Below, in pieces: positions 9,124 through 52,713 of a stretch of DNA of 64,000 nucleotides. The DNA is taken from positions 62,001-126,000 of the forward strand of contig FNEU01000002.1 of assembly GCA_900100245.1 (NCBI GenBank). Reading direction: 5' to 3'. Position numbers and translations under genes: made by a program. This DNA is from Lachnospiraceae bacterium G41 (GTDB lineage: Bacteria > Bacillota > Clostridia > Lachnospirales > Lachnospiraceae). The notes beneath the pieces were generated by a model that was not told the DNA's origin, did not search any database, and was given only the letters and a program-made list of their open reading frames with translations. Position 1 is the first letter of the stretch; the number at the start of each line of letters is the position of its first letter.

Positions 9124-9978
9124 ATGGGAGTGATGATTATTGCCGATTCGGCTAGTGAAGTATCGCAGGAGACTGCAAAGGAATGGGGGATAAAGGTACT
9201 TCCGCTTAAGATAAGATTCGGAGAAGATGAATATCTTGACGGAGTAACACTATCAAATAAAAGATTTTATGAGTTATTAATCGAATCCGACGAACTTCCA
9301 AAGACCAGCCAGATTTCACCGGCCGACTATGAGGATTGTTTCAAAGAAGCAGTGGATACGGGAGACGAGGTAGTCTGCCTTACGATTTCCTCGGGAGTTT
9401 CGGGTTGCGTACAAAGTGCGAATATAGCAGCAGCGGAGTTTGAAGGAAAAGTACATGTGGTGGATACAATGCAGTTTTGTATTTCTTACTATGTACTGGT
9501 TGAATATGCGGTAAGACTTCGCAATGAAGGCAAGAGCGCCAAAGAAATTGCGGACGAAATCACGAGAGTTCGCGAAAAGGCAATAGTGCTTGCGGTATTT
9601 GATACACTTGAATATTTAAAGGCAGGAGGAAGACTTTCTTCAACCGCTGCATTTGTGGGAGAGGTTCTTTCCATCAAACCTGTTATCACGATTACAAACG
9701 GAATTGTTGATGTTATCGGCAAAGCAAGAGGTTCCAAAAAAGGAAACAATATGCTTATTTCAAAGGTAAAGGAAATAGGCGGCATAGATTTTACGATGCC
9801 TGTTGTTACAGGATATACGGGTCTTTCTGATGATTTGTTACAGAAATACCTCGAGGACAGCAGGGATTTATATGACGGTGATATTAAAGACATCAGAAAA
9901 GTCAGCGTAGGTGCCACAGTCGGAACATACGCAGGGCCCGGCGCCATAGCCGTAGCATTTTATCCCAAAGGAATTTAA
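9124..9978 (+). CDS. DegV family fatty-acid-binding protein
   Basis: A 284-residue DegV protein: N-terminal IIADSASEVSQE, then the LPKTSQISPADY ligand-loop motif near residues 59-70, TISSGVSGCVQSA near 95, and GGRLSSTAAFVGEVLSIKPVI near 170. DegV proteins bind a fatty acid, and in Gram-positives the FakB members hand it to the kinase FakA. No FakA-type kinase is seen in the window. The ATG follows TTGGAGAG. It is followed at 10 bp by a serine hydrolase gene. Confidence 0.9.
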   Translation: MGVMIIADSASEVSQETAKEWGIKVLPLKIRFGEDEYLDGVTLSNKRFYELLIESDELPKTSQISPADYEDCFKEAVDTGDEVVCLTISSGVSGCVQSANIAAAEFEGKVHVVDTMQFCISYYVLVEYAVRLRNEGKSAKEIADEITRVREKAIVLAVFDTLEYLKAGGRLSSTAAFVGEVLSIKPVITITNGIVDVIGKARGSKKGNNMLISKVKEIGGIDFTMPVVTGYTGLSDDLLQKYLEDSRDLYDGDIKDIRKVSVGATVGTYAGPGAIAVAFYPKGI

Positions 9979-9988
9979 GGACGAAGAA

Positions 9989-11125
9989 ATGGATTTTGAC
10001 AAATTAACTTATTATCTTGATTCGCTTGTAATTAAAGATGATTTTCCTTCCGTAGACTGTATCATTTACAAGGACCACGAAATGCTTTACAGACATATGT
10101 ACGGAACCTGTGACAAGGCCAAAAGCATTCCGGTCAGAGATAACCAGCAGTATCTGATGTTCTCAATGACGAAGGTTCAGACAATGGTTGCTTTTATGCA
10201 GTTAGTCGAACAGGGAAAAATATCCCTTGAGGACGAGGTCTCAAAATACCTTCCTGCGTACGGAAATCTTTTATACGAAAAAAGAGAAGGCAATAAAATC
10301 GATATCGTAAAATGCGACAAGCCTTTAAAGATAAAACATTTGGTTTCCATGCAGTCGGGACTTGATTACGATCTTGAGCGTGCGGGAATTTTAAGAGTTT
10401 TAAATGAAAAAGGAATGAATGCCACGACGAGAGAGCTGGTTGATTCCTTTGTGGAAACACCTCTTAAATTCAAGCCCGGCACCAGATTTTTATACAGTTT
10501 AAGCCATGATGTAATCGCTGCGATAATCGAGGTTGTATCGGGCAAATCCTTTGGCGAGTACCTAAAAGAAAACATCTGGGACCGTCTCGGCATGAAAGAT
10601 ACGATGTTTGCAAAGCCCGAGAATTATTTAAACAATCTGGCAGTACAGTTTATATGCGACGATAAAGGAAACATCAATCCGATGGAGCCCATTTGTCAGT
10701 ATCAGCTTTCCGAAAAGTATGAAAGCGGCGGAGCAGGACTTATATCCACCACCGAAGATTATGCCAAATTTGCAGATACAATTGCATGCGGCGGTGTCAG
10801 CAAAGACGGTAAAAGAATTATAAAAGCAAAAACAATAGATATCATCAAAACCAATCTTTTATGCCCGCAAGGATTAAAAGATATCGAAGAAACCATGGGC
10901 AGAAAAGGTTACGGCTACGGCGTCGGAATGCAGGTTCTGATGAAACCGAGGGTTATCAAATCCAAAGCACCCAAAGGAGTATTCGGTTGGGACGGCGCTG
11001 CGGGAAGCTGCATCATAATGGATACGGAGAATAAGCTCTCGCTCGTCTACACCATGCATGTAAGAAACTGCGGTATGGCATACGGTGAGGTTCATCCGAG
11101 GTTAAGAGATTTTCTGTATGAATAA
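9989..11125 (+). CDS. Serine hydrolase of the beta-lactamase/class C-like family
   Basis: A 378-residue serine hydrolase with the S-x-x-K motif at Ser59-Met-Thr-Lys62. A Tyr-Ser-Leu element near residue 171 takes the place of the usual Tyr-x-Asn, and GWDGAAG near 333 that of the K/H-x-G motif. There is no signal peptide, so it should be cytosolic. Its position before an alpha/beta hydrolase and two xylanases makes an esterase role (family VIII carboxylesterase-like) more attractive than a penicillin-binding one. That is an inference from neighbours only. Confidence 0.75.
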   Translation: MDFDKLTYYLDSLVIKDDFPSVDCIIYKDHEMLYRHMYGTCDKAKSIPVRDNQQYLMFSMTKVQTMVAFMQLVEQGKISLEDEVSKYLPAYGNLLYEKREGNKIDIVKCDKPLKIKHLVSMQSGLDYDLERAGILRVLNEKGMNATTRELVDSFVETPLKFKPGTRFLYSLSHDVIAAIIEVVSGKSFGEYLKENIWDRLGMKDTMFAKPENYLNNLAVQFICDDKGNINPMEPICQYQLSEKYESGGAGLISTTEDYAKFADTIACGGVSKDGKRIIKAKTIDIIKTNLLCPQGLKDIEETMGRKGYGYGVGMQVLMKPRVIKSKAPKGVFGWDGAAGSCIIMDTENKLSLVYTMHVRNCGMAYGEVHPRLRDFLYE

Positions 11126-11152
11126 CAAGCTTGCTTGTATGAAAGGAACAAT

Positions 11153-12016
11153 ATGAAAGATTTTTTAAGGGAAATGCAAAGCTATCCGGGCATTGGAGCG
11201 AAACTTTTAACTTATAAAAGAGAGATTAAGCCCACCAAGGTTAATCTCGGAGAGAGCAAGGAAGTATATTTTCTTCATTTTGCTCCGCCCGTTAAAAAAC
11301 ATTCAGAGATAGTAATCTACATTCACGGTGGCGGATGGAACAGCAAGTCTCCGAGAGACTTTGAATTCATCGGTCAGAGAATAGCCAAGGAAGGCTACGA
11401 ATGCGTCCTCATGGGCTACAGAAAGGTTCCCGGAGCACATTACAACCAGATAATCGAGGATGTATGCATCGAATACAAGGCTGTTTTAAAATATCTTAAG
11501 GGCAAGGAAATCGAAGCCAACCGCGTGATAATAATGGGCTCGTCCGCAGGGGCACATTTGGGCTCACTCCTTGTATACGACAAGAGCCTTCATAAAAAAT
11601 ATAAAATCGGTGCCAAAAGATTCGTCGGCTTTATCGGACTCGCAGGCCCCTACTGCTTCGAAGGAAAGCTTCCCTGGGCACTCAATCAGCTTGTAAGCGA
11701 TTTGTTTGAAAAGGGTCAGGACTGGAAGGAAGGCGAGCCTTATTCAAAACTCGATCTGCTTACACCCGGCGATATAGAAACAACCATTCCGATGTATCTT
11801 ATTCAAAGCGATCATGACGGCGTGCTTGATATGAAGCATACGCTTGTATTTGCCAGAAAGGCCATGGAAATGAATATGCCTGTGACATTTTACAAGGTTC
11901 TTGATTCAAAGAATACGCATTCATATTATTCGACGGCTGTTTTCTTTGACGATTTAACCAAGAGCAGAACGCTTCAGACGATATTTAATTACCTCGGTCA
12001 GCTGACAGAGGATTGA
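11153..12016 (+). CDS. Alpha/beta hydrolase, putative carbohydrate esterase
   Basis: A 287-residue alpha/beta hydrolase of the carboxylesterase/BD-FAE type. The oxyanion motif is HGGGW at residues 58-62, the nucleophile Ser131 lies in GSSAG, a likely acid is in QSDHDGV near 222, and a likely His in NTHSYY near 255. I chose the ATG at 11153 because AAAGGA stands 6 bases before it; an in-frame TTG at 11135 would swallow that site. No signal peptide. It lies between a serine hydrolase and a GH10 xylanase, which fits removal of acetyl or feruloyl groups from imported xylo-oligosaccharides, though this is not shown by the sequence itself. Confidence 0.8.
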   Translation: MKDFLREMQSYPGIGAKLLTYKREIKPTKVNLGESKEVYFLHFAPPVKKHSEIVIYIHGGGWNSKSPRDFEFIGQRIAKEGYECVLMGYRKVPGAHYNQIIEDVCIEYKAVLKYLKGKEIEANRVIIMGSSAGAHLGSLLVYDKSLHKKYKIGAKRFVGFIGLAGPYCFEGKLPWALNQLVSDLFEKGQDWKEGEPYSKLDLLTPGDIETTIPMYLIQSDHDGVLDMKHTLVFARKAMEMNMPVTFYKVLDSKNTHSYYSTAVFFDDLTKSRTLQTIFNYLGQLTED

Positions 12017-12064
12017 TTCTTTTAGGATGATGAATAAATAAAAAATTATAATTGAGGAGGGCGT

Positions 12065-13318
12065 ATGGACTTTTCACACAGAAAGGTAAGCAAGGTTTTA
12101 AAGATTACCAACGGTAACAATGAGCCTTTATGCAATGAAAAGGTTCACATTGCTTTAAAAAATCATGAATTTTTATTCGGTTGCGGCGCATTTGAGACGA
12201 TTCCTTATGTAATGGAAAAGAATCCGCAGTTCGGAGAAAAGATTCCCGAGAACCTTATCAAAAATCTCGCATTAAAACCCGATATTGAAGCCGGAATAGA
12301 AAAGTGGCTTAATCTTTTTAACTACGGTACACTTCCTTTTTACTGGGGACAGTATGAGAAGGAAGAGGGCAAAACCAACGAAGCAGTGCTTATGGCGGCT
12401 GCCAAGTTTTTGCAGAGCAATAATGTGACCGTAAAAGGCCATCCTTTGTGCTGGCACACCGTATGTGCAGACTGGCTGATGGATTATGACAATCCCACCA
12501 TTTTAAAGAAGCAGCTTGACCGTATCGAGAGGGAAGTTAACACTTATAAAGGCGTAATCGATATGTGGGATGTAATAAATGAAGTTGTAATCATGCCCAT
12601 ATTCGACAAATACGACAATGCTATTACACGTATCTGCAAGGACAAGGGCAGGGTAGGGCTCATAAAAGAAGTATTCGACAAAGCGCATTCATGCAATCCG
12701 AACGCAACACTTCTTATAAATGACTTTAACACCTCGGTTTCCTATGAAATATTAATCGACGGATGCTTATCCGCAGGAGTTCCGATTTCTGCCATCGGTA
12801 TCCAGTCGCATCAGCATCAGGGCTACTGGGGCAAAGAAAAGGTGGAAGAAGTGCTCGAGAGATTTTCGCATTTCGGACTTCCGATTCATTTTACGGAAAA
12901 TACCTTTGTATCAGGTACACTTATTCCCGAATACATTCAGGACTTAAACGACTGGCAGGTTGACGAGTGGCCTTCAACTCCCGAAGGAGAAGAGAGACAG
13001 GCGAATGAAGTAAAAGAGATGTACAGCCTCCTTTTCGCTCATCCCCTCGTAAAAGCAATCACAACCTGGGACTTCAGGGACGGCGCATGGCTTGGTGCAC
13101 CGAGCGGTTTATTGAGAAAGGACGGCTCCTTAAAACCCGCATACGAGACCCTTTACAACCTGGTTAAAAAAGAGTGGAGCACCGACGAAACTCTTACCAC
13201 CGACGAAAACGGATTCGTTAAAATCGACGCTTTTAAGGGCGATTACATAATCGAGGTTCAAGGCAAGAGTGTAACTGCCAAATTCGCAGAAGACGGCGAA
13301 GAAAAAATCACATTTTAA
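12065..13318 (+). CDS. Cytosolic GH10 endo-1,4-beta-xylanase
   Basis: A 417-residue GH10 enzyme. The acid/base Glu173 lies in MWDVINEVV and the nucleophile Glu278 in IHFTENTF, spaced as in the family. GHPLCWHT near residue 125 and ITTWDFRDGAWLGAPSGLL near 345-365 complete the barrel motifs. A short N-terminal beta segment precedes the barrel (residues 1-45) and a small beta tail follows it. There is no signal peptide, so it should cut short xylo-oligosaccharides after import. GAGGAGGG supports the start. A strong terminator follows before the surface xylanase gene. Confidence 0.9.
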   Translation: MDFSHRKVSKVLKITNGNNEPLCNEKVHIALKNHEFLFGCGAFETIPYVMEKNPQFGEKIPENLIKNLALKPDIEAGIEKWLNLFNYGTLPFYWGQYEKEEGKTNEAVLMAAAKFLQSNNVTVKGHPLCWHTVCADWLMDYDNPTILKKQLDRIEREVNTYKGVIDMWDVINEVVIMPIFDKYDNAITRICKDKGRVGLIKEVFDKAHSCNPNATLLINDFNTSVSYEILIDGCLSAGVPISAIGIQSHQHQGYWGKEKVEEVLERFSHFGLPIHFTENTFVSGTLIPEYIQDLNDWQVDEWPSTPEGEERQANEVKEMYSLLFAHPLVKAITTWDFRDGAWLGAPSGLLRKDGSLKPAYETLYNLVKKEWSTDETLTTDENGFVKIDAFKGDYIIEVQGKSVTAKFAEDGEEKITF

Positions 13319-13347
13319 GCACTCAAATTTCATAGGCGAAAAATTAT

Positions 13348-13385
13348 AGAAAAAACAGGGATAAAAACTTGTTTTTTCTTTTTTT
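13348..13385 (+). terminator. Rho-independent terminator after the cytosolic xylanase
   Basis: AGAAAAAACAGG pairs with CTTGTTTTTTCT (one G-T pair) and runs directly into a T-rich tract. It separates the two xylanase genes into different transcripts. Confidence 0.8.
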
Positions 13386-13388
13386 GCG

Positions 13389-13418
13389 TTGAAGAATAAC
13401 GGACAAATTTGATATAAT
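13389..13418 (+). promoter_or_regulatory. Promoter of the surface xylanase gene
   Basis: TTGAAG and TATAAT are separated by 18 bp, with TG one base before the -10 box (extended -10). It lies between the upstream terminator and the strong AAGGAGG ribosome binding site of the xylanase gene. Confidence 0.75.
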
Positions 13419-13467
13419 TCTGCTATATGTGAAAATTTAATTTCACTAGGGAGCAAGGAGGAAAAAA

Positions 13468-16400
13468 ATGAGCAGAAAAATCATGGCTTTTGTGATGGCT
13501 GCACTTCTGTTTATCGGTTCATTTGCCTTATTTTTACCGATTTCAGTTAAGGCTGCACCTTCAGAAAAGACTTACACTTTCTCGGATCTGAAATCCACTA
13601 TGGAGTACGGATTGACATCAAGTGTAAACGGAGATGGTGAACTGGAGATTTCTTTCCAGGATCAGTACAAGTCTCAGTTTTACGCAATCCCTTCGGATAT
13701 CGACCCCGATACAATCACCAAGGTTGTATTTGATGTAACAAGCGGTAATGCGGGAGACCTTGCATTCAAGCTTCATACACAGGCCGATTACGATTCCGAC
13801 AACAAGGGTGGCACCCCTGTATCTTACGGTAGTCCTACGATTATCCCCGATACAAAAGGATGCAAATATTTTTCAATTATGTCTATGAATACGGGTACAA
13901 CCAAAGCTACGGTAGCTTCGGTCACATTTACCGTATCCGGTGAAGGCAACCCTCCCGGGGACGAAGCAGACGCACTTGAAGCACCCTCTGTAGAAGGTGA
14001 GAACCTTTTAAAGAACGGTAACTTCGCTGATGCAGACGTTTCCATGTGGGGAGCTGAAATAGAAAACGCAAAGATTACTACAGCAGTTAGTGATACACCT
14101 ATCGTAGGCGATATTACAACTTACGGTGTAATCGACGGCAGAACAAGACCTTATGACTGCTTCGGTTACGATGTAACAGATATCGTTGAAAACGGTGCAA
14201 CATATGCATACTGCTTCTATGTAATGCTTACAGATGACTACAACGGAGCACCCGCTACACAGCGTCAGGTTGATTTTGCTCCTTATATTACATCAGGCGG
14301 AAGCACCAATTATCTTGGTTCTTATTCGCCTGAAATCTCAGGTTCTTCAAGCCAGCAGCTTGAGCCTAACGTTTGGACCAAATTCGAAGGTACTTTCAAA
14401 GTATCTGCAGCAGGGGATATTGAAAAGGTTGTTTTAAGATTCCTCGAGCAGGGCGAAAACTACGGTGAAGGCGATTGCGTTAAAGGTAAATATTATCTTA
14501 CAGGCGTTTCCTTCATTAACTTAAATCTCGGTTCCAAGACAATTGAAGCAAACATTCCCAATCTTAAGGATGCATTTACAAAAGATTTCGGTGCTGACAT
14601 GATCTGCGGTACATCCCTTTCAGGTTCCGAAATCAACGATAAGGTTCTTATGCAGCTCGTTGAAAAGCACTTCAATGCAGTTACATTAGGAAATGAATTA
14701 AAGCCTGATTCACATCTCGGTTATTCAATCAGAGGAACAGAAGAGGCAACTATCGACGGACAGACAATCACTGTTCCCGTACTTGATTATTCAAATGCAG
14801 AGAGATATCTTGATTATTTCCTTGCATGGAACGAAGAACATCCCGACCAGCAGATTAAGATCAGAGGTCACGTTCTCGTATGGCATTCACAGACACCCGA
14901 ATGGTTCTTCCATGAGGACTATGATGCTAACAAGGCTTACGTATCTCCCGAAGTTATGACACTTCGTCAGGAATGGTACATCAAGTCCGTTCTTGAACAT
15001 TACGTAGGCGCAGACAGCAAATACAAAGATCTCTTCTACGGATGGGATGTTGTAAACGAAGCTGTTTCCGACGGAACAGGTACATACAGAAACGATTCCG
15101 AAGGTTCAAGCTGGTGGGCAGTATATAAGAGCAACGAGTTTATCGTAAATGCTTTCAAATTTGCAAACAAATATGCTCCCGCAAATGTAGAACTTTACTA
15201 CAACGATTACAATGACTGTACACCCGGTAAGGTTGAAGGTATCGTAAAACTCCTTGAAGACGTTAAGGCAGGCGAAGGTACCAGAATCGACGGTATGGGT
15301 ATGCAGGGCCACTATGATAATGAATATCCTACAACTGATCAGTTCGTATCTGCAGCTACAAAGTATGGCGCAGTAGTAGGCAAGATTATGCTTACAGAAG
15401 TTGACTTTAAGTCCAGCAAGGCATATGACGGAACAGCAGCTACACTTCAGGGCGAATATACAAGACAGGCTTACAGATACAAAGCAATTTATGATGCAAT
15501 GAAGAAGGTTGATTCCGAAGGTCTTGCAGATGTTACAGGTTTCACCGTATGGGGCGTTATCGACGGTAACTCATGGCTTCAGGCTTACACAGGCGTAGGC
15601 GGCGGTGTAACAGACGGCAGTCCTCAGTGTCCTCTTCTTTTCGATGATGACTTAAAGGCTAAACCTGCATTCTGGGCACTTGCAGATCCTACTCAGTTAT
15701 CTCCCGAAACAAAGGCAGCAGACGTAACTCAGGCTATGGTTGACGATTTCGCACTTGCGAATAAAAATTCATTCTCGGGAGAGAAAGCAAACGTTGATTT
15801 CTATCCTATCTGGAATGAAGGTCAGCTTCAGTTCAGAGTAGATGTTTGGGACGTTGAACAGGATGAAAGAGATTCGGTAAAGGTTTACGTTGATAAATAC
15901 AATTCAAAATCCAAAGGCATTAAGACCAAGATGGTTGAAGCCTTCAGAAAAGATGTTCCTTCAACCGATGACGGAAAATATACTGTTATAATTAATGTTC
16001 CCGTTGATACAGCAGAAGCAAATGCTGTAGTGGGATTTGATATTGTTGTTACCGATGGCGATGAAGTATTTGCTTTTAACGACAATACAATGTCTCAGGA
16101 AACATCCAGCCAGTATTATGCAGAAGGTATGTTAAAGCCTTTCATGTTTATCCCTAAGGGAACTGCCACAATTGACGGCGAGATGGAAGATGCATGGAAC
16201 AATGCAGTAGAAGTCAAACTTGGCAACAAGACAGACAATCCCAAGGCAACCGCAACGGTTAAGCTTCTCTGGGATGAGCAGTACTTATATGCTTATGCTA
16301 CCGTAGTTGATGACGATCTTAACAAAGATTCGGAGCAGGTACATGAGCAGGATTCATTCGAAATCTTTATCGATGAAACTAACTCCAAGGCTGCAGAGTA

Positions 16401-45386: not shown

Positions 45387-45423
45387 CACCCGGTTGCATT
45401 AATTTTGCAACCGGGTGATTTTT
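45387..45423 (+). terminator. Terminator of tyrS
   Basis: CACCCGGTTGCA and TGCAACCGGGTG form a perfect 12-bp stem followed by ATTTTTT. The palindromic tandem array begins directly after it. Confidence 0.88.
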
Positions 45424-45950
45424 TGGATTTTGTTAGCCGGAAAGGGCATTATTCAAGCTGTTTTAGAGGTGGCTGGCTAACAAAACGCCTGATTTTGGAT
45501 TTTGTTAGCCGAAAAGCAGATATTTCATGCTATTTTAGGAGTGGCTGGCTAACAAAACGCCTGATTTTGGATTTTGTTAGCCGAAAAGCAGATATTTCAT
45601 GCTATTTTAGGAGTGGTCGGCTAACAAAATGCCTGATTTTTGAATTTTGTTAGCCGGAAAGCAGATTATTCAAGCTGTTTTAGAGGTGGCTGGCTAACAA
45701 AACACCTGATTTTTGAATTTTGTTAGCCGGAAAGCAGATATTTCATGCTATTTAGAAGTGGTCGGCTAACAAAATGGCTGATTTTGAATTTTTGTTAGCC
45801 GGAAAGCAGATATTTCATGCTATTTTAGGAGTGGTCGGCTAACAAAATGCCTGATTTTGAATTTTTGTTAGCCGGAAAGGGAGTTATTCAAGCTGTTTTA
45901 GAGGTGGCTGGCTAACAAAACACCTGATTTTTGAATTTTGTTAGCCGGAA
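45424..45950 (+). repeat. Tandem array of seven 72-73 bp palindromic units plus a half unit
   Basis: Each unit starts with TTTTGTTAGCC and ends with its exact reverse complement GGCTAACAAAA. Left arms begin at 45428, 45500, 45572, 45645, 45718, 45790, 45863 and 45936; the last has no right arm. The interior comes in two versions, A (ATTATTCAAGCTGTTTTAG) and B (ATATTTCATGCTATTTTAG), in the order A-B-B-A-B-B-A, so there is a three-unit super-period. Arms of neighbouring units can also pair with each other across a shorter loop. Confidence 0.95.
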
Positions 45951-46060
45951 TTTGATTTTTGAATATTAAAACAAGTATAATTAGATGGATTAAAGATAAT
46001 TGAAATATAATAATATTAAGAAAAATAAAGATAATAATAGAGATAATAAATATATAAAAG

Positions 46061-46132
46061 ATATAAAGATATAAAGATATAAAGATATAAAGATATAAAG
46101 ATATAAAGATATAAAGATATAAAGATATAAAT
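46061..46132 (+). repeat. 8-bp microsatellite (ATATAAAG), about nine copies
   Basis: Eight perfect copies of ATATAAAG at 46061-46124 and a ninth, ATATAAAT, at 46125-46132, about 46 bp before the fbp start codon. The units contain TATAAA, so copy number could alter promoter spacing or strength. Confidence 0.95.
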
Positions 46133-48122: not shown

Positions 48123-48123
48123 A

Positions 48124-48152
48124 TGACACAAAACCCCCGTCCCCCGGTGTCA
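48124..48152 (+). repeat. REP-like palindrome with a C-rich core
   Basis: TGACAC and GTGTCA flank a core of two C-runs (ACCCCCGTCCCCCG). Read on the other strand it has the GGGGGACGGGGG core that I recall from scattered REP-like elements of diverse bacteria. No transposase of the REP-associated type is in the window. It lies just after fbp and before the promoter of the four-gene operon. Confidence 0.5.
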
Positions 48153-48162
48153 AAATATTAAC

Positions 48163-48191
48163 TTTAAATAGACCGCCTTTTATGGTAAAAT
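48163..48191 (+). promoter_or_regulatory. Promoter of the pseudokinase/VWA/PurA-like operon
   Basis: TTTAAA and TAAAAT are separated by 17 bp, with TG one base before the -10 box (extended -10). It lies 47 bp before the first start codon of the operon. Confidence 0.55.
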
Positions 48192-48238
48192 ATCAGAGTA
48201 ATTAATGTTTTCAGACACCAGCTGAAAGGATTGACGAA

Positions 48239-49201
48239 ATGAAGAATATACTGTGTAAAAACTGTGGCGGAAGTATGATTTTGGACGCATCAGCGACAAC
48301 TGCTGTATGTAAGTATTGCGGGTCAACCTATGTGTTGAACCATGAAGATACCGATTATTACAAGCAGTTCTATCAGCGGATGCGTTCTTTTTTTACCCTT
48401 TCAAAGGATGAGCAGGCAAGACGCTTAAAGGCTGATGAGCTTTGGGAGACTGCGGAGGATAAAAAATTCGAATGCCTTGACGGTAAAGATATTGAGGTCA
48501 GATATCTTTATTCTCATAAAGATCCTGCTGCGGATTCATACACTGCAAGAAGAAATATAATTTATCATTTTGAAGAAAAGAATGCAGACTGTGTGGAGAA
48601 GTTTAGAAAAGCAATTTCCATGCTTGATTATCCGTCTGCCGATACCAAGAGTTTAAGTGATTTCTTCCCTCATATAAACGGTGGATTTGAACTTGAAGGC
48701 GGCGAAAGACTTCTTGTAATCACCAAGGGAGAGGATGAATATCCTTTAAGACTCTTTGGTACGCTTTCCGGAAGACATGTGGCATGGATTATAAGCCGTC
48801 TTGAGAACTTATGCTGCGTGCTTGAATATAACGGCCTTGCACATGCGGACTTAAATATAGATTCAATTTATATAAACCCTTATGATCATACCGCGTTTCT
48901 TTACGGCAACTGGTGGAATGCAGGAAAGCACAATACACACACGAGAGGCATATTCCTTGATGTAGCAGACAATCTTGTAAACTTAAGAAAGATTGCAAAG
49001 GAACTGCTCGGTTTTAAGGCGGATGAAAAAGTCATTCCCGACGGTGATAATATCCCACAGGCTCTGGCTGATTTTATAAACGGAAATCCCAAGGTAAATG
49101 CATACGAAGATTTTGCGTATTGGGATGAAATGTTAATAAAGGCCTTCGGTGAGAGAAAGTTTATCAACATGGATACCGAAGACGGTGAAATATACAAATA
49201 A
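48239..49201 (+). CDS. Zinc-ribbon protein with degenerate protein-kinase-like domain
   Basis: A 320-residue protein. Residues 1-30 form a zinc ribbon (Cys6, Cys9, Cys24, Cys27). The rest resembles the C-lobe of a protein kinase: YNGLAHADLNIDSIYINP (His202-Ala-Asp204) takes the place of the HRD catalytic loop, and FLYGNWW (about 220-226) stands where the DFG motif would be. A later helix with DNLVNLRKIAKELLG and the ending EMLIKAFGERKF follow. The missing Asp of DFG suggests an inactive or unusual kinase. It is the first gene of a tight operon with two VWA-like proteins and a PurA-like enzyme; kinase-VWA pairs are known from Ter/TerY systems, so a signalling role is plausible. Confidence 0.6.
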   Translation: MKNILCKNCGGSMILDASATTAVCKYCGSTYVLNHEDTDYYKQFYQRMRSFFTLSKDEQARRLKADELWETAEDKKFECLDGKDIEVRYLYSHKDPAADSYTARRNIIYHFEEKNADCVEKFRKAISMLDYPSADTKSLSDFFPHINGGFELEGGERLLVITKGEDEYPLRLFGTLSGRHVAWIISRLENLCCVLEYNGLAHADLNIDSIYINPYDHTAFLYGNWWNAGKHNTHTRGIFLDVADNLVNLRKIAKELLGFKADEKVIPDGDNIPQALADFINGNPKVNAYEDFAYWDEMLIKAFGERKFINMDTEDGEIYK

Positions 49202-49216
49202 TTGACGGAGACATAA

Positions 49217-50149
49217 ATGGGCAGAGGAAGCTACAGGGCTTCGGACTGGGCTAAGCTTAGAAGCAGGATCAGCACATCCGTAAGCGCAGAAGAAATATAT
49301 GCCAACAGAATAACGGCTTTTACACCCGCTTTGGATATTCATACCAAGAAAACCGAAGGGTGCAAGCAGATTCGCGAATCAAGAGATTCTGAGGACTCGC
49401 CCGAATCGACACCTGTTATCATAGGCTTTGATGTGACTGCTTCAATGGGATATCTTGCAAAGGAACTTGCACTTAATTCCATGAACAAAATCATCACCAA
49501 TCTTTACAAAGAAAAGCCGATTTCAAATCCGCATATTTTATGTGCGGCCATAGGTGATTCGAGAGCGGACAATTATCCTCTTCAGGTAACTCAGTTTGAA
49601 GCAGATATAAGAATCATTGAACAACTTATAGATTTGTATCTTGAAGGCGGTGGTGGAGGAAACGGCGGAGAAAGCTACAATCTTTTATGGTATTTTGCCG
49701 CGAAGCATACCAAGGCCGACTGCTTCGAAAAACGTTCTAAAAAAGGATATCTTTTTACGATAGGCGATGATGCGAGTCTTGGAAATCTTTCGCCTGCAGA
49801 GATAAAGAGAATATTTAATGACGATGTTCCGTATGTTTTATCCGATGAGGAGCTTTTAAGAAAAGCCGAGAAAAACTACAATGTTTTTCATATCGTGATA
49901 GAAAACGAACAGGCGGATGAGGAAAAAATCTTCAGAAAATGGCAGGAATTAATGCCGGGAAAAGTTACAATCATAAATAAAAAAGATATTTCATTCTTAG
50001 CTGATATAATATATGCAATCATTTCGGTATCCGAAGGAAAGACAGCGAATGAAGCATTAAAATCCATGGACCAAAATAAGGCGGAAAAGGCAGCGGAGTC
50101 ACTGGCGTATATCGAAGGGCCTAAGAAACAGTCTTCAATTGTATTTTAA
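49217..50149 (+). CDS. VWA-like protein, first paralog
   Basis: A 310-residue protein starting MGRGSYRASDWAKL and carrying a metal-site motif of the von Willebrand A type, FDVTASMG (Asp72-x-Thr74-x-Ser76). Between them lies ESRDSEDSPESTP, shared with the next gene's product. Further shared blocks are ITNLYKEKPISNPHILCAA, QVTQFEADIRIIEQL and SYNLLWYFAAKHTKAD. No signal peptide or membrane helix, so it is cytosolic. VWA domains bind partner proteins through a metal ion. It starts 15 bp after the zinc-ribbon pseudokinase gene. Confidence 0.7.
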   Translation: MGRGSYRASDWAKLRSRISTSVSAEEIYANRITAFTPALDIHTKKTEGCKQIRESRDSEDSPESTPVIIGFDVTASMGYLAKELALNSMNKIITNLYKEKPISNPHILCAAIGDSRADNYPLQVTQFEADIRIIEQLIDLYLEGGGGGNGGESYNLLWYFAAKHTKADCFEKRSKKGYLFTIGDDASLGNLSPAEIKRIFNDDVPYVLSDEELLRKAEKNYNVFHIVIENEQADEEKIFRKWQELMPGKVTIINKKDISFLADIIYAIISVSEGKTANEALKSMDQNKAEKAAESLAYIEGPKKQSSIVF

Positions 50150-50176
50150 AAAATTTTAATAAACGGAGGTTCCAAT

Positions 50177-51064
50177 ATGGGAAGGGGCAGTTATCGTGCA
50201 TCAGACTGGACTAAATTAAAACAGTCGAGAGGTATTACAAGTTCATCAAGCGCAAGTACAATTTTCCAGGTATCAAAAGCTAAGGAACAGTATTTGCCGA
50301 AATTCATCAATGTAAGAGAATCAAGAGACTCAGAGGATTCACCGAATTCAACACCTATTATTTTAGGATTTGATGTTACGGGTTCAATGGGCTATCTCGC
50401 AGAAGAGATTGCAAAGAATGCTTTAAACGAAACGGTAACTCAGATTTATGCCAAAAATCCTGTTACCAATCCGCATATTATGTGTGCTGCATTTGTAGAG
50501 GCAGAAGATCCCGACGGACTTCAGGTAACACAGTTTGAAGCGGACATCAGAGTAGTTGAACAGTTGCTTGATTTAAGAGTAGGCTTCGGTGGAAACTGGT
50601 ACAGCTATGATTCACTGCTTTGGTATTTCGCAGCTAAGCATACTTCAATCGATTCTTTCGAGAAGAGAGGAAAGAAAGGTATTCTGATCGGAATCGGCGA
50701 TGAAATAGCTGATAATGGCGGCAGACATGTGCTTTCAAAGAAAGAGATAGAAGACATGTTTGGCGATAAAGTGGATAAAGAAATCACTCTTGCCAAAGCA
50801 TATGAAATGGCAAGCGAAAAATATGAAATCATTCATATTATCACGGGTGGCAATCAGAAGAATGCATGGAAAACATGGACCGAACTTCCTTACATGAAGG
50901 GCAGAGTAGCTATCCTTGATCCTTCAGATATCGGATGTCTCTCGGAAGTAATTACAACCATTCTTCAGTTGATTAACAAGGGCAACAGAGAAGATATCAT
51001 CAATCAGTGGCCCGAGAAGATTCGTCCTATCATTAAGGAAGCTGTAAAAGAAATTAAGTTTTAA
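50177..51064 (+). CDS. VWA-like protein, second paralog
   Basis: A 295-residue paralog of the preceding gene. It has the same N-terminal MGRGSYRASDW, the same RESRDSEDSP linker, the metal-site motif FDVTGSMG (Asp66-x-Thr68-x-Ser70), NPVTNPHIMCAAF, QVTQFEADIRVVEQL and SLLWYFAAKHTSID. It lacks the Gly-rich loop of the first paralog (GGGGGNGG), having VGFGGNWYSYD there instead. The two may form a heterodimer or recognise different partners. ACGGAGG supports the start; its stop overlaps the ATG of the PurA-like gene (TAATG), so the two proteins are made together. Confidence 0.7.
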   Translation: MGRGSYRASDWTKLKQSRGITSSSSASTIFQVSKAKEQYLPKFINVRESRDSEDSPNSTPIILGFDVTGSMGYLAEEIAKNALNETVTQIYAKNPVTNPHIMCAAFVEAEDPDGLQVTQFEADIRVVEQLLDLRVGFGGNWYSYDSLLWYFAAKHTSIDSFEKRGKKGILIGIGDEIADNGGRHVLSKKEIEDMFGDKVDKEITLAKAYEMASEKYEIIHIITGGNQKNAWKTWTELPYMKGRVAILDPSDIGCLSEVITTILQLINKGNREDIINQWPEKIRPIIKEAVKEIKF

Positions 51065-52302
51065 TGAAAGCACACATTGTAATCGGCAAAAATTTTGGAG
51101 ATGAAGGAAAAGGCCTTGCAACGGACTGCTTCGCGAGATTGGCAATTAAAAACGGTCAGTCAGCGATAGCAGTTCGTTTCAACGGCGGAGCGCAAGCCGG
51201 CCACACGGTAGATACACCCTGTGGGCGGTTTGTTTTTCATGAGCTCTCATCCGCATCTTTTAGGAAAGTCGATACATATTGGGCGAAGGACTTTCTGCCG
51301 GATTTGTACAAGCTTGAAGAAGAATTGAATGAATTTAAGGGATTAACCGGCTTTGCTCCTTCGATTATCGCATCGCCCTTATGCCGTATTGTTACGATAG
51401 ATGATGTTTTACTTAACATGGCTTTGGAAAGTTTGAGGGGTAAGGACAGGCACGGCTCCTGCGGTATGGGTATATATGAAGCCGTGGTTCGTTCCGAACA
51501 ACATCCTTTGCTCCTAAAAGATATAAAAGGCATATCCGCAGAAAAACTATTTAATATATTCAAAGAATTAAGAAGCGAATATTATCCTAAAAGATTGGAA
51601 GATTTGATAGCAGAAGATAGCAGCTTAAAGGCAGCAGTTGGTAAGGAAAATGAATTCTTTGAACTTCTAAAGGAAGAAAATGTTATAAGAAATGCTGCGG
51701 AAAGAATCTGTCGAGGGGCGGAACTTGTTGAATTAAAAGAGCATGATTTTCTCTCATCGTTTGATGAAATAATATTCGAAGGTGCACAGGGACTTTTGCT
51801 TGATACAGACAATACAGAATTTGCTCCGCATATAACCGCATCACATACCGGAGCCAAGGCAGCAGTAAATATATGCATGGAAACAGGTATTAAGGATATA
51901 GAGGTTTGCTACATAAGCAGAACGTATGTTACAAGACATGGGGCAGGCGTGCTCCCGTGTGAAGAAGAGTGGCCAAAATACAATCTTAAGATAAATGATG
52001 CAACCAATATCGAAAACCCCTGGCAGGGAATTATAAGATATGCTCCACACGAATCTTTGGACAGATTTTTAGAAGCGGTTATTAAAGATTTGAATTCAAT
52101 AGATAAAGGATTGATTTCCGATGATGTTTCCATTAAAAAATCACTCTTTCTAACACATCTGAATGAAACGGATAATAAGATATTATTTTCCGACAATACT
52201 GAATTGGATATTGATTCTTTTATGAGAAAATCTGAAATATCGAAAACATTTGATAATTATTATCTGTCTGCTTCGCCATTTTCAGAAAAAAGTACTGCCT
52301 GA
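51064..52302 (+). CDS. Divergent adenylosuccinate-synthetase-like enzyme
   Basis: A 412-residue relative of PurA. Kept: NFGDEGKG with the catalytic Asp13, GGAQAGHT with His47, and IIFEGAQGLLLDTDN near residue 238. Changed: the segment normally reading TTGRRRRTGW, which binds aspartate and IMP, is replaced by a stretch with NIENPWQGIIRYA; the guanine-binding TKLD becomes THLN; and the usual STRVG is TRHGAG. The purine-handling core may therefore act on another acceptor or nucleotide. It is translationally coupled to the second VWA gene. Its last codons lie in the first unit of the 52-bp array. By eye its sequence is more A/T-rich than flanking core genes. Confidence 0.75.
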   Translation: MKAHIVIGKNFGDEGKGLATDCFARLAIKNGQSAIAVRFNGGAQAGHTVDTPCGRFVFHELSSASFRKVDTYWAKDFLPDLYKLEEELNEFKGLTGFAPSIIASPLCRIVTIDDVLLNMALESLRGKDRHGSCGMGIYEAVVRSEQHPLLLKDIKGISAEKLFNIFKELRSEYYPKRLEDLIAEDSSLKAAVGKENEFFELLKEENVIRNAAERICRGAELVELKEHDFLSSFDEIIFEGAQGLLLDTDNTEFAPHITASHTGAKAAVNICMETGIKDIEVCYISRTYVTRHGAGVLPCEEEWPKYNLKINDATNIENPWQGIIRYAPHESLDRFLEAVIKDLNSIDKGLISDDVSIKKSLFLTHLNETDNKILFSDNTELDIDSFMRKSEISKTFDNYYLSASPFSEKSTA

Positions 52303-52540
52303 AATAGAAAAAATAAATGAAGGCAGTACAAAAGGCAATAAAAGTACTGCCTGAAATAGAAATAATAAATGCAGGCAGTACAAAAGTCAATCAAGGTACT
52401 GCCTGAAATAGAAAAAATAAATGCAGGCAGTACAAAAGTCAATAAAAGTACTGCCTGAAATAGAAAAAATAAATGCAGGCAGTACAAAAGTCAATAAAAG
52501 TACTGCCTGAATGAGAAAAAAAGAAATCTGGCAGTAAACA
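52291..52540 (+). repeat. Tandem array of five 52-bp palindromic units
   Basis: Left arms GTACTGCCTG begin at 52292, 52344, 52396, 52448 and 52500, an exact 52-bp period. Each is followed by an A-rich loop and the reverse complement CAGGCAGTAC (one mismatch in unit 1, degenerate in unit 5), then AAAAGTCAATAA. The first unit overlaps the end of the PurA-like gene and supplies its stop codon. It is unrelated in sequence to the 72-bp array but of the same design. Confidence 0.95.
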
Positions 52541-52713
52541 TTGCAGATATTCACATATTTATTGAAAAATTATGGATAGAAAATCATTTTCAATCTTGAA
52601 GATGATTTTTTTGTGGCATTTTGACGAATAATGATATATAATATTATGTAAATTTTTCAAAGACAAAAAACGCCCTTAAAATAAGGCTTTAGAGTCCGGA
52701 AAGGAGGGAGATT
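52303..52713 (+). other. 410-bp intergenic region before the RelA/SpoT gene
   Basis: No gene. It holds the rest of the 52-bp array, a terminator, and a possible promoter with TTGACG at 52621 and a poor -10 box about 18 bp on. A strong AAAGGAGGGAG ribosome binding site precedes the ATG at 52714. Confidence 0.7.
52580..52612 (+). terminator. Terminator of the PurA-like operon
   Basis: AAAATCATTTTCAA pairs with TTGAAGATGATTTT (one G-T pair) around a 2-base centre, followed by more T. It lies after the 52-bp array, so the array is expected to be part of the operon's transcript. Confidence 0.75.

Follow-up and report, generated by a model that had tools for sequence, protein, structure and literature searches.

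A conserved module of phages and bacteria joins VWA proteins, a divergent PurA-like enzyme and a predicted pseudokinase

The stretch of DNA analyzed here (the window) comprises 64,000 nucleotides of Lachnospiraceae bacterium G41 (contig FNEU01000002.1, positions 62,001 to 126,000), an organism with a genome of 2.59 Mb. Within it lies an operon that encodes, in order, a zinc-ribbon protein with a kinase-like domain (gene 1), two VWA-like paralogs (genes 2 and 3, here VWA protein 1 and VWA protein 2), and a relative of adenylosuccinate synthetase, PurA (gene 4). A first-pass annotation of the window had described four genes on the same strand, spaced by 15 and 27 bp and ending in a TAATG overlap, and the open reading frame (ORF) coordinates agree with it exactly. 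It had also proposed that the genes act as one system and had named a gene-neighborhood search and fold prediction as checks; both came out in its favor, as the VWA, PurA-like and pseudokinase genes recurrently occur together, and kinase and VWA folds are predicted for genes 1 and 2. The four genes belong to a conserved module with a VWA/PurA-like core.

Bacterial loci were collected by scanning GTDB with the VWA family (best 80 of at least 572 confirmed stretches) and viral loci by scanning IMG/VR with the same family (best 80 of 344 stretches), and the counts from these loci therefore lean toward the window's own kin. In six-frame searches of the 80 + 80 loci, a PurA-like gene stood beside the VWA gene at 77 of the bacterial loci, the three misses ending no more than 2 bases from a contig edge, and at 75 of the viral ones. 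The pseudokinase was found at 76 bacterial loci; three of the four misses start about 600 bases or less from the locus end, and the gene is truly absent from the fourth (L089). Among the viral loci, 37 carried the pseudokinase, 14 a methionine-rich (Met-rich) protein, and none both. Clustering of flanking ORFs recovered the PurA-like family at 165 loci, the VWA family at 157, and the pseudokinase at 117, followed by an antisense ORF (24 loci), the Met-rich protein (16), Nudix proteins (15), and an ABC transporter (13). (Recurrent flank families are those present in at least four loci, and most of their labels come from reading the sequences.) A chance neighborhood was rejected as an explanation, since co-occurrence of the genes is far above chance. 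The VWA/PurA-like pair is under strong selection.

The Met-rich family replaces the pseudokinase in one phage group (L004:5747-6535, L005:6246-6956, and L003:6480-7085); the one copy searched against Pfam and the two searched against NCBIfam gave no match. Viral loci L149, L155, L156, L170, and L171 encode a small protein between the Met-rich protein and the VWA protein, and the one copy searched, that of L170, matched HIRAN weakly and under the cut-off (PF08797, 1.8e-4). For the 24 members of a kinase-less phage clade, the search for a common upstream gene yielded none. On an Allorhizobium plasmid (L191), genes for an AAA ATPase, DUF5682, and DUF4132 (9408-14885) lie immediately downstream of the module.

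Table 1. Coordinates of the operon and associated features within the window
Feature	Position	Strand	Remarks
Zinc-ribbon pseudokinase gene (gene 1, 320 aa)	48239..49201	+	kinase-like fold at about residues 73-303
N-terminal zinc ribbon CxxC...CxxC of gene 1	48239..48334	+	from sequence
VWA protein 1 (gene 2, 310 aa)	49217..50149	+	MIDAS-like DVTASM and GD
VWA protein 2 (gene 3, 295 aa)	50177..51064	+	DVTGSM; stop codon overlaps gene 4 start by one base
PurA-like ligase (gene 4, 412 aa)	51064..52302	+	PF00709 homology
Whole indel (operon + repeat array)	48123..52603	.	boundaries from separately aligned flanks
Candidate promoter TTTAAA-17-TAAAAT with TG	48163..48191	+	9/12 positions matching
Tandem array, 52-bp x 4.8, GTACTGCCTG/CAGGCAGTAC hairpin units	52288..52536	.	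overlaps last codons of PurA-like gene

Gene 1 had been described as a four-Cys zinc ribbon joined to a kinase-like domain with degenerate HAD and YGNW motifs, a description on which sequence, AlphaFold, and Foldseek agree. The ribbon cysteines are C6, C9, C24, and C27, and the two motifs occupy residues 202-204 and 222-225, respectively. The AlphaFold model has a mean predicted local distance difference test (pLDDT) score of 90.4, and Foldseek finds in it a kinase-like bilobal fold: the listed hits, kinases and pseudokinases alike, have probability 1.00 and TM-scores by query length of about 0.4-0.5, include ROP5, PknB, and ASK1, and have Toxoplasma rhoptry pseudokinases among the best. Only 11 of 59 homologs keep Asp at the HRD Asp position, the place of DFG is GGWW-like, and no beta-3 Lys is conserved, the strand having been assigned from the AlphaFold model. 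Because the HRD Asp is rarely kept, DFG is degenerate, and the beta-3 Lys is unconserved, we call the gene 1 protein a predicted pseudokinase. At the N terminus, 33 homologs have the four-Cys ribbon and the other 26, which lie outside the window's lineage, have a J-domain-like region with an HPD-like motif. The gene 1 ribbon scored under the PF08271 cut-off (23.1 of 29 bits), and the J-domain-like homolog of L112 fell just short of that for PF00226 (DnaJ; 6.6e-6, 26.6 of 27.8 bits). The homolog in mycobacteriophage Tonenili is above the PF00069 cut-off (35.6 versus 31.7 bits). Phage homologs were recognized by position and profile; a tblastn search of phages with the window pseudokinase gave no matches.

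Genes 2 and 3 are the VWA-like paralogs that had been proposed, the former by its predicted fold and the latter by 44% identity to the former. Neither paralog matched a Pfam VWA model at E up to 1, despite the VWA fold of VWA protein 1, and the VWA family profile found no matches among PDB sequences. For VWA protein 1 (AlphaFold pLDDT 90.4), Foldseek returned the integrin beta-I/VWA fold, again with listed hits at probability 1.00 and TM-scores by query length of about 0.4-0.5. Residues D72, T74, S76, and D184, invariant in 59 rows of the VWA alignment, correspond to the DxTxS motif and later Asp of the metal-ion-dependent adhesion site (MIDAS). Both proteins match phrog_2971 (5.8e-39 for VWA protein 1 and 1.1e-26 for VWA protein 2). 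Because they sit in separate clades of the VWA tree, both shared with other Clostridia, their duplication probably predates these genera. The module copy at L059 has three consecutive VWA genes.

The last gene had been read as a divergent relative of adenylosuccinate synthetase, and this view stands: it matches PF00709 (8.3e-31) and remains under the cut-off of the curated PurA equivalog NF002223 (91.7 of 402 bits). It is also under that of the PurZ model NF038379 (33.4 of 300 bits). Its best phrog match is a phage family, phrog_1211 (1e-44), and the profile of the PurA-like family finds PDB PurA 1ade at 1e-43. We compared the sites of 48 family members with those of the host's own canonical PurA, which is encoded separately in the genome (G000:C20:82212). 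Catalytic Asp13 and His41 (PurA numbering; Asp13 and His47 in the window copy) are kept in 48/48, and the phosphate loop is conserved. In PurA, TGRxRR is the aspartate-binding motif and TKLD confers selectivity for GTP. Because each of these motifs is found in 0/48 members, the specificity of the family for both amine and nucleotide has probably changed. A new segment, DxTNxxNxxQGxxR, has N315 and Q321 invariant in 48/48. In addition, 92-100% of the family have Gln for PurA N38, Cys for T129/T130, and His for V273/V274 (E. coli numbering). Simple identity with PurA or PurZ was rejected, as the curated cut-offs are missed and the motifs changed. RefSeq phage records label the family "2-aminooxy adenylosuccinate synthetase" (e.g., NC_070966 gp019), which was unsupported in this analysis.

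On either side of the operon lie genes for a class III fructose-1,6-bisphosphatase (FBPase_2, fbp) and RelA/SpoT (Pfam). In a near relative, G010, relA/spoT follows fbp directly, with only ~120 bp between them and with operon and array absent; the 4.5 kb that hold operon and repeat array are thus a presence/absence block. Carriage of the window copy by a mobile element was rejected: among gene-like ORFs, the block missing from G010 holds only the four genes, together with the repeat array, and no transposase or integrase was seen in it. The fbp match in G010 (C43:3137-5077) contains one internal TAA. The closest named relatives at the locus, among the matches listed, are Lachnospiraceae metagenome-assembled genomes, mostly from rumen (L023-L026).

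The single promoter and single terminator originally assigned to the operon were not borne out by scans. Promoter-like sites showed no excess (17, versus 14.1 +/- 3.2 in shuffles), and the terminator scan gave none on the + strand, its three sites (3.7 expected) all being on the - strand. Instead of a detected terminator, the operon end carries the 52-bp hairpin tandem array. A second intergenic array of hairpin units (73 bp x 7.3, 45421-45950) flanks, with that at 52288-52536, the stretch of fbp and operon, and an 8-bp array (ATAAAGAT) x 11.6 lies just upstream of fbp at 46037-46131. No RNA families were found within the window at gathering scores.

The module is patchily distributed. Within the genus, 14 of 31 genomes hold at least part of it (VWA in 13, pseudokinase in 14, PurA-like in 12); the gaps in G006 and G020 are contig ends, and in G028 the pseudokinase and PurA-like genes lie on different contigs and VWA was not found. 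Outside the genus, the VWA gene was present in 0/30 genomes. In even draws, it occurred in 1/398 genomes of the window's phylum (the window's own) and in 6/398 of the phylum of Massilia, the centre genome included. Of 50,697 phage records, 206 matched the VWA protein (188 of them Mycobacterium phages) and 218, or 12 more, the PurA-like protein (189 Mycobacterium phages); among 72,556 plasmid records, 21 matched the VWA protein. Versions of the module occur in Mycobacterium, Rhizobium, and Vibrio phages. In the four phages examined closely, the PurA-like gene directly follows the VWA gene; Tonenili has the kinase gene first, then VWA, then PurA-like. This VWA linkage of the PurA-like gene extends across Bacillota, Pseudomonadota, actinobacterial plasmids, and phages. 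In the VWA tree, phage and bacterial branches are intermixed outside the zinc-ribbon clade, with several nodes weakly supported. (Some zinc-ribbon loci are marked J-type in the labels of this tree; locus-type counts use a later assignment.) Patchy spread and the mixing of phages and bacteria fit horizontal exchange; the module may be an accessory set passed between phages and bacteria.

Many copies of the module adjoin a candidate regulator. Among annotated plasmid loci, an annotated NUDIX gene stands beside the module in four of five, and a profile search detected one at the fifth (L192). Alphaproteobacterial and Desulfosporosinus Nudix copies are NrtR-like, with the winged-helix domain PF21906 at 1e-10 to 4e-23, and two NrtR-like copies matched the ADP-ribose-responsive NrtR model at 1e-39 and 1e-36, under the equivalog cut-off. 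The strict Nudix-box pattern is present in just one of nine NrtR-like copies (L074). By a home-made profile, constructed on 9 of the loci to which it was then applied, an NrtR-like gene adjoins 17/18 J-type, 5/6 kinase-less, 0/63 zinc-ribbon, and 0/3 truncated bacterial loci, or 22/24 of the untruncated loci without a zinc ribbon. Thirteen of these 22 genes lie upstream in the opposite orientation and 3 upstream in the module's own; the downstream genes comprise 4 in that same orientation and 2 in the opposite one. PF21906 served as an independent check: in 16 of 20 genomes, which hold 0-3 PF21906 copies apiece, one such gene is no more than 2.1 kb away from the VWA gene (distances by subtraction). 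The misses were G458 (L078, zinc-ribbon), G461, G841, and G865 (L100, positive by the home-made profile). In the lineages that have it, a regulator of this type points to ligands of the NAD/ADP-ribose kind.

An operator-like palindrome, TTGTTATTTNNAAATAACAA, lies upstream of 7/24 non-zinc-ribbon loci when 0-3 mismatches are allowed. At each of these seven loci, 0/200 first-order random sequences matched as well, and the best matches in 25 zinc-ribbon control loci had 4-8 mismatches, which supports the palindrome as a candidate operator. NAMPT-type genes lie near the module in eight viral loci (L128, L149, L152, L156, L161, L162, L171, and L177; one copy tested), and NadM-Nudix genes in six, including four with NAMPT-type genes. 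These loci belong mostly to one Met-rich phage clade. Such phage neighbors are consistent with a link to NAD (nicotinamide adenine dinucleotide) and ADP-ribose. In Vibrio phage Va1 (L005), a NADAR gene lies upstream of the module.

With a little less than even confidence, we favor an accessory phage-bacteria module in which the PurA-like enzyme would synthesize or repair a purine nucleotide, with the VWA and pseudokinase proteins as a scaffold. As in the PurA reaction, the enzyme would first add a phosphate to the 6-oxo group of its purine nucleotide, and an amine would then displace the phosphorylated group, with a substrate pair other than inosine monophosphate (IMP) and aspartate. The product may be a 6-amino or N6-substituted purine nucleotide, made or restored, and tied to the ADP-ribose/NAD pool. 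The modified purine that the first-pass annotation put forward is likewise an inference. The VWA metal site and degenerate kinase could together act as a scaffold that responds to metal and nucleotide and loads or gates the enzyme. Where present, the NrtR-like protein would repress the operon, and a rise in an ADP-ribose-type nucleotide, for example during phage conflict or stress, would lift the repression. More tentatively, a scaffold of dead kinase (with J-domain or zinc ribbon) and VWA protein might control a re-specified PurA-type ligase in phage-bacteria conflict or signaling, giving a new N6-substituted purine nucleotide or conjugate that is often NrtR-sensed. If a hitherto unknown purine nucleotide is indeed made or sensed, it would represent new chemistry in phage-host conflict, joined to NAD/ADP-ribose control.

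Several observations weigh against the favored scheme. Neither pseudokinase nor Met-rich protein is present at 29 of the 80 viral loci, so the scaffold idea is not valid for all loci. Just two of the five viral loci that miss the PurA-like gene (L141 and L151) do so near a locus end, and Rhodovulum L195 has VWA and pseudokinase genes with no PurA-like gene within 14.8 kb. On the regulatory side, NrtR is missing beside every one of the zinc-ribbon loci of the window's lineage, and PF21906 is absent from the window's genome, so it is not possible to extend the regulator link directly to the window operon. Two actinobacterial NUDIX copies counted as NrtR-like are under the PF21906 (NrtR_WHD) cut-off (0.013 and 0.049). 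Six of the seven palindrome matches come from closely related Competibacter-like genomes, and the motif itself was derived from the seventh (L200), so the palindrome supports an operator and does not prove it. Finally, BtAraR, a regulator of L-arabinose use, is reported to belong to the NrtR family, and the ligand of the regulator thus need not be ADP-ribose.

Among other explanations, the strongest is nucleotide repair or counter-defense, in which the enzyme would re-aminate ITP, dITP, or deaminated NAD arising from deaminase defenses or damage and so restore the ATP/NAD pools of phage or cell. The PurA reaction, which runs in the direction from IMP to AMP, and the retention of the catalytic residues agree with such a role, as do the many phage matches and the several Met-rich-type phage loci where NAMPT and NadM-Nudix genes lie no more than about 6 kb away (one example of each label confirmed). 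We nevertheless consider it unlikely: simple repair needs no changed aspartate loop, the NAD genes may do no more than mark related phages, and a PurB-like lyase was not recognized in recurrent flank families, though no search was aimed at PurB.

It is also improbable that the module makes a precursor for modification of phage DNA bases in the manner of PurZ. A PurA-family gene in phages and the PHROG label "2-aminooxy adenylosuccinate synthetase" would suit that role, but the PurZ model scores about a ninth of its cut-off, VWA linkage is almost universal, and copies reside on bacterial chromosomes and plasmids, where replacement of phage bases is not expected. We give an equally small chance to a protein-directed ligase, for which VWA and J-domain/pseudokinase chaperones would deliver a protein whose amine is joined to an activated purine. 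To our knowledge, no PurA-fold enzyme modifies proteins, and the zinc-ribbon lineage does without a J-domain. What speaks for such a ligase are the J-domain-like N termini, the VWA fold, the missing canonical aspartate loop, and the proposal of a vWA peptide-binding chaperone in PMC9503650.

An ordinary second adenylosuccinate synthetase with incidental neighbors is very improbable; homology to PurA is clear, but the equivalog score is far under its cut-off, the specificity motifs are changed, VWA linkage holds across bacterial phyla, actinobacterial plasmids, and phages, and the host already has a canonical purA. Hardly credible is a branch of the Ter/TerY-P stress network, the kinship suggested in the first-pass annotation. 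The combination of a zinc ribbon, a kinase-like protein, and two VWA genes side by side is similar on paper, but the ribbon is at the opposite end, the kinase motifs are degenerate, and neither PP2C nor Ter was recognized in recurrent flanks.

We return to the favored scheme, a purine-nucleotide module with a VWA/pseudokinase scaffold, to compare it with known systems. No published description of the module was found in the open-licence literature, among the matches listed, nor is it described in the available passages of PMC7824862, PMC10892097, PMC7139368, PMC8878043, PMC9476963, PMC5343134, and PMC11090510; database records annotate its parts only singly, as "PurA-like," "kinase," or "hypothetical." None of the four window proteins matched the PADLOC 2023 defense models at E up to 1. 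Among nine homologs searched at E up to 0.01, seven had no PADLOC match, the Tonenili kinase hit 30 models that contain kinases, and a single weak hit came from one NrtR-like protein.

The PurA-like enzyme shares with PurA (PF00709) its sequence homology and the core elements GDEGKG, GHT, R143, and EGAQG, and differs in lacking the Asp-binding loop and the TKLD nucleotide motif throughout the 48 members. Like PurZ of 2-aminoadenine phages, it is a PurA relative carried by phages; unlike PurZ, it is VWA-linked and is also found on bacterial chromosomes, and its match to PurZ is weaker than that to PurA (33 versus 92 bits). According to a passage of PMC11090510, the components of TerY-P include a PP2C phosphatase together with a Ser/Thr kinase whose zinc ribbon is C-terminal. 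On paper, the TerY-P triad and the module both combine a VWA-type protein, a kinase-like protein, and a zinc ribbon; here, however, there is a predicted pseudokinase with an N-terminal ribbon or J-domain, accompanied by a PurA-like enzyme. PP2C was not recognized in flank families of at least four loci, on which no PP2C profile was run, and no Ter family was recognized among them.

NrtR regulons resemble the regulated loci in having a Nudix domain with a winged helix, encoded divergently from or in line with the operon, and, in seven loci, an operator-like palindrome. They differ in that the targets here are not known NAD genes and the regulator is absent from the window's lineage. Closest in setting to these loci are the NAD/ADP-ribose conflict systems centered on ADP-ribosylglycohydrolase (ARG) in PMC9503650, in section 3.8 of which a vWA protein is proposed, for other systems, to act as a peptide-binding chaperone alongside Nudix-type repressors. 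No ARG was recognized in recurrent flanks, on which no ARG profile was run, or annotated beside the five plasmid loci. The core here is PurA-like, and "adenylosuccinate" is absent from the main text of that paper. What the two share is a Nudix-helix-turn-helix repressor and a vWA chaperone-like protein in one neighborhood.

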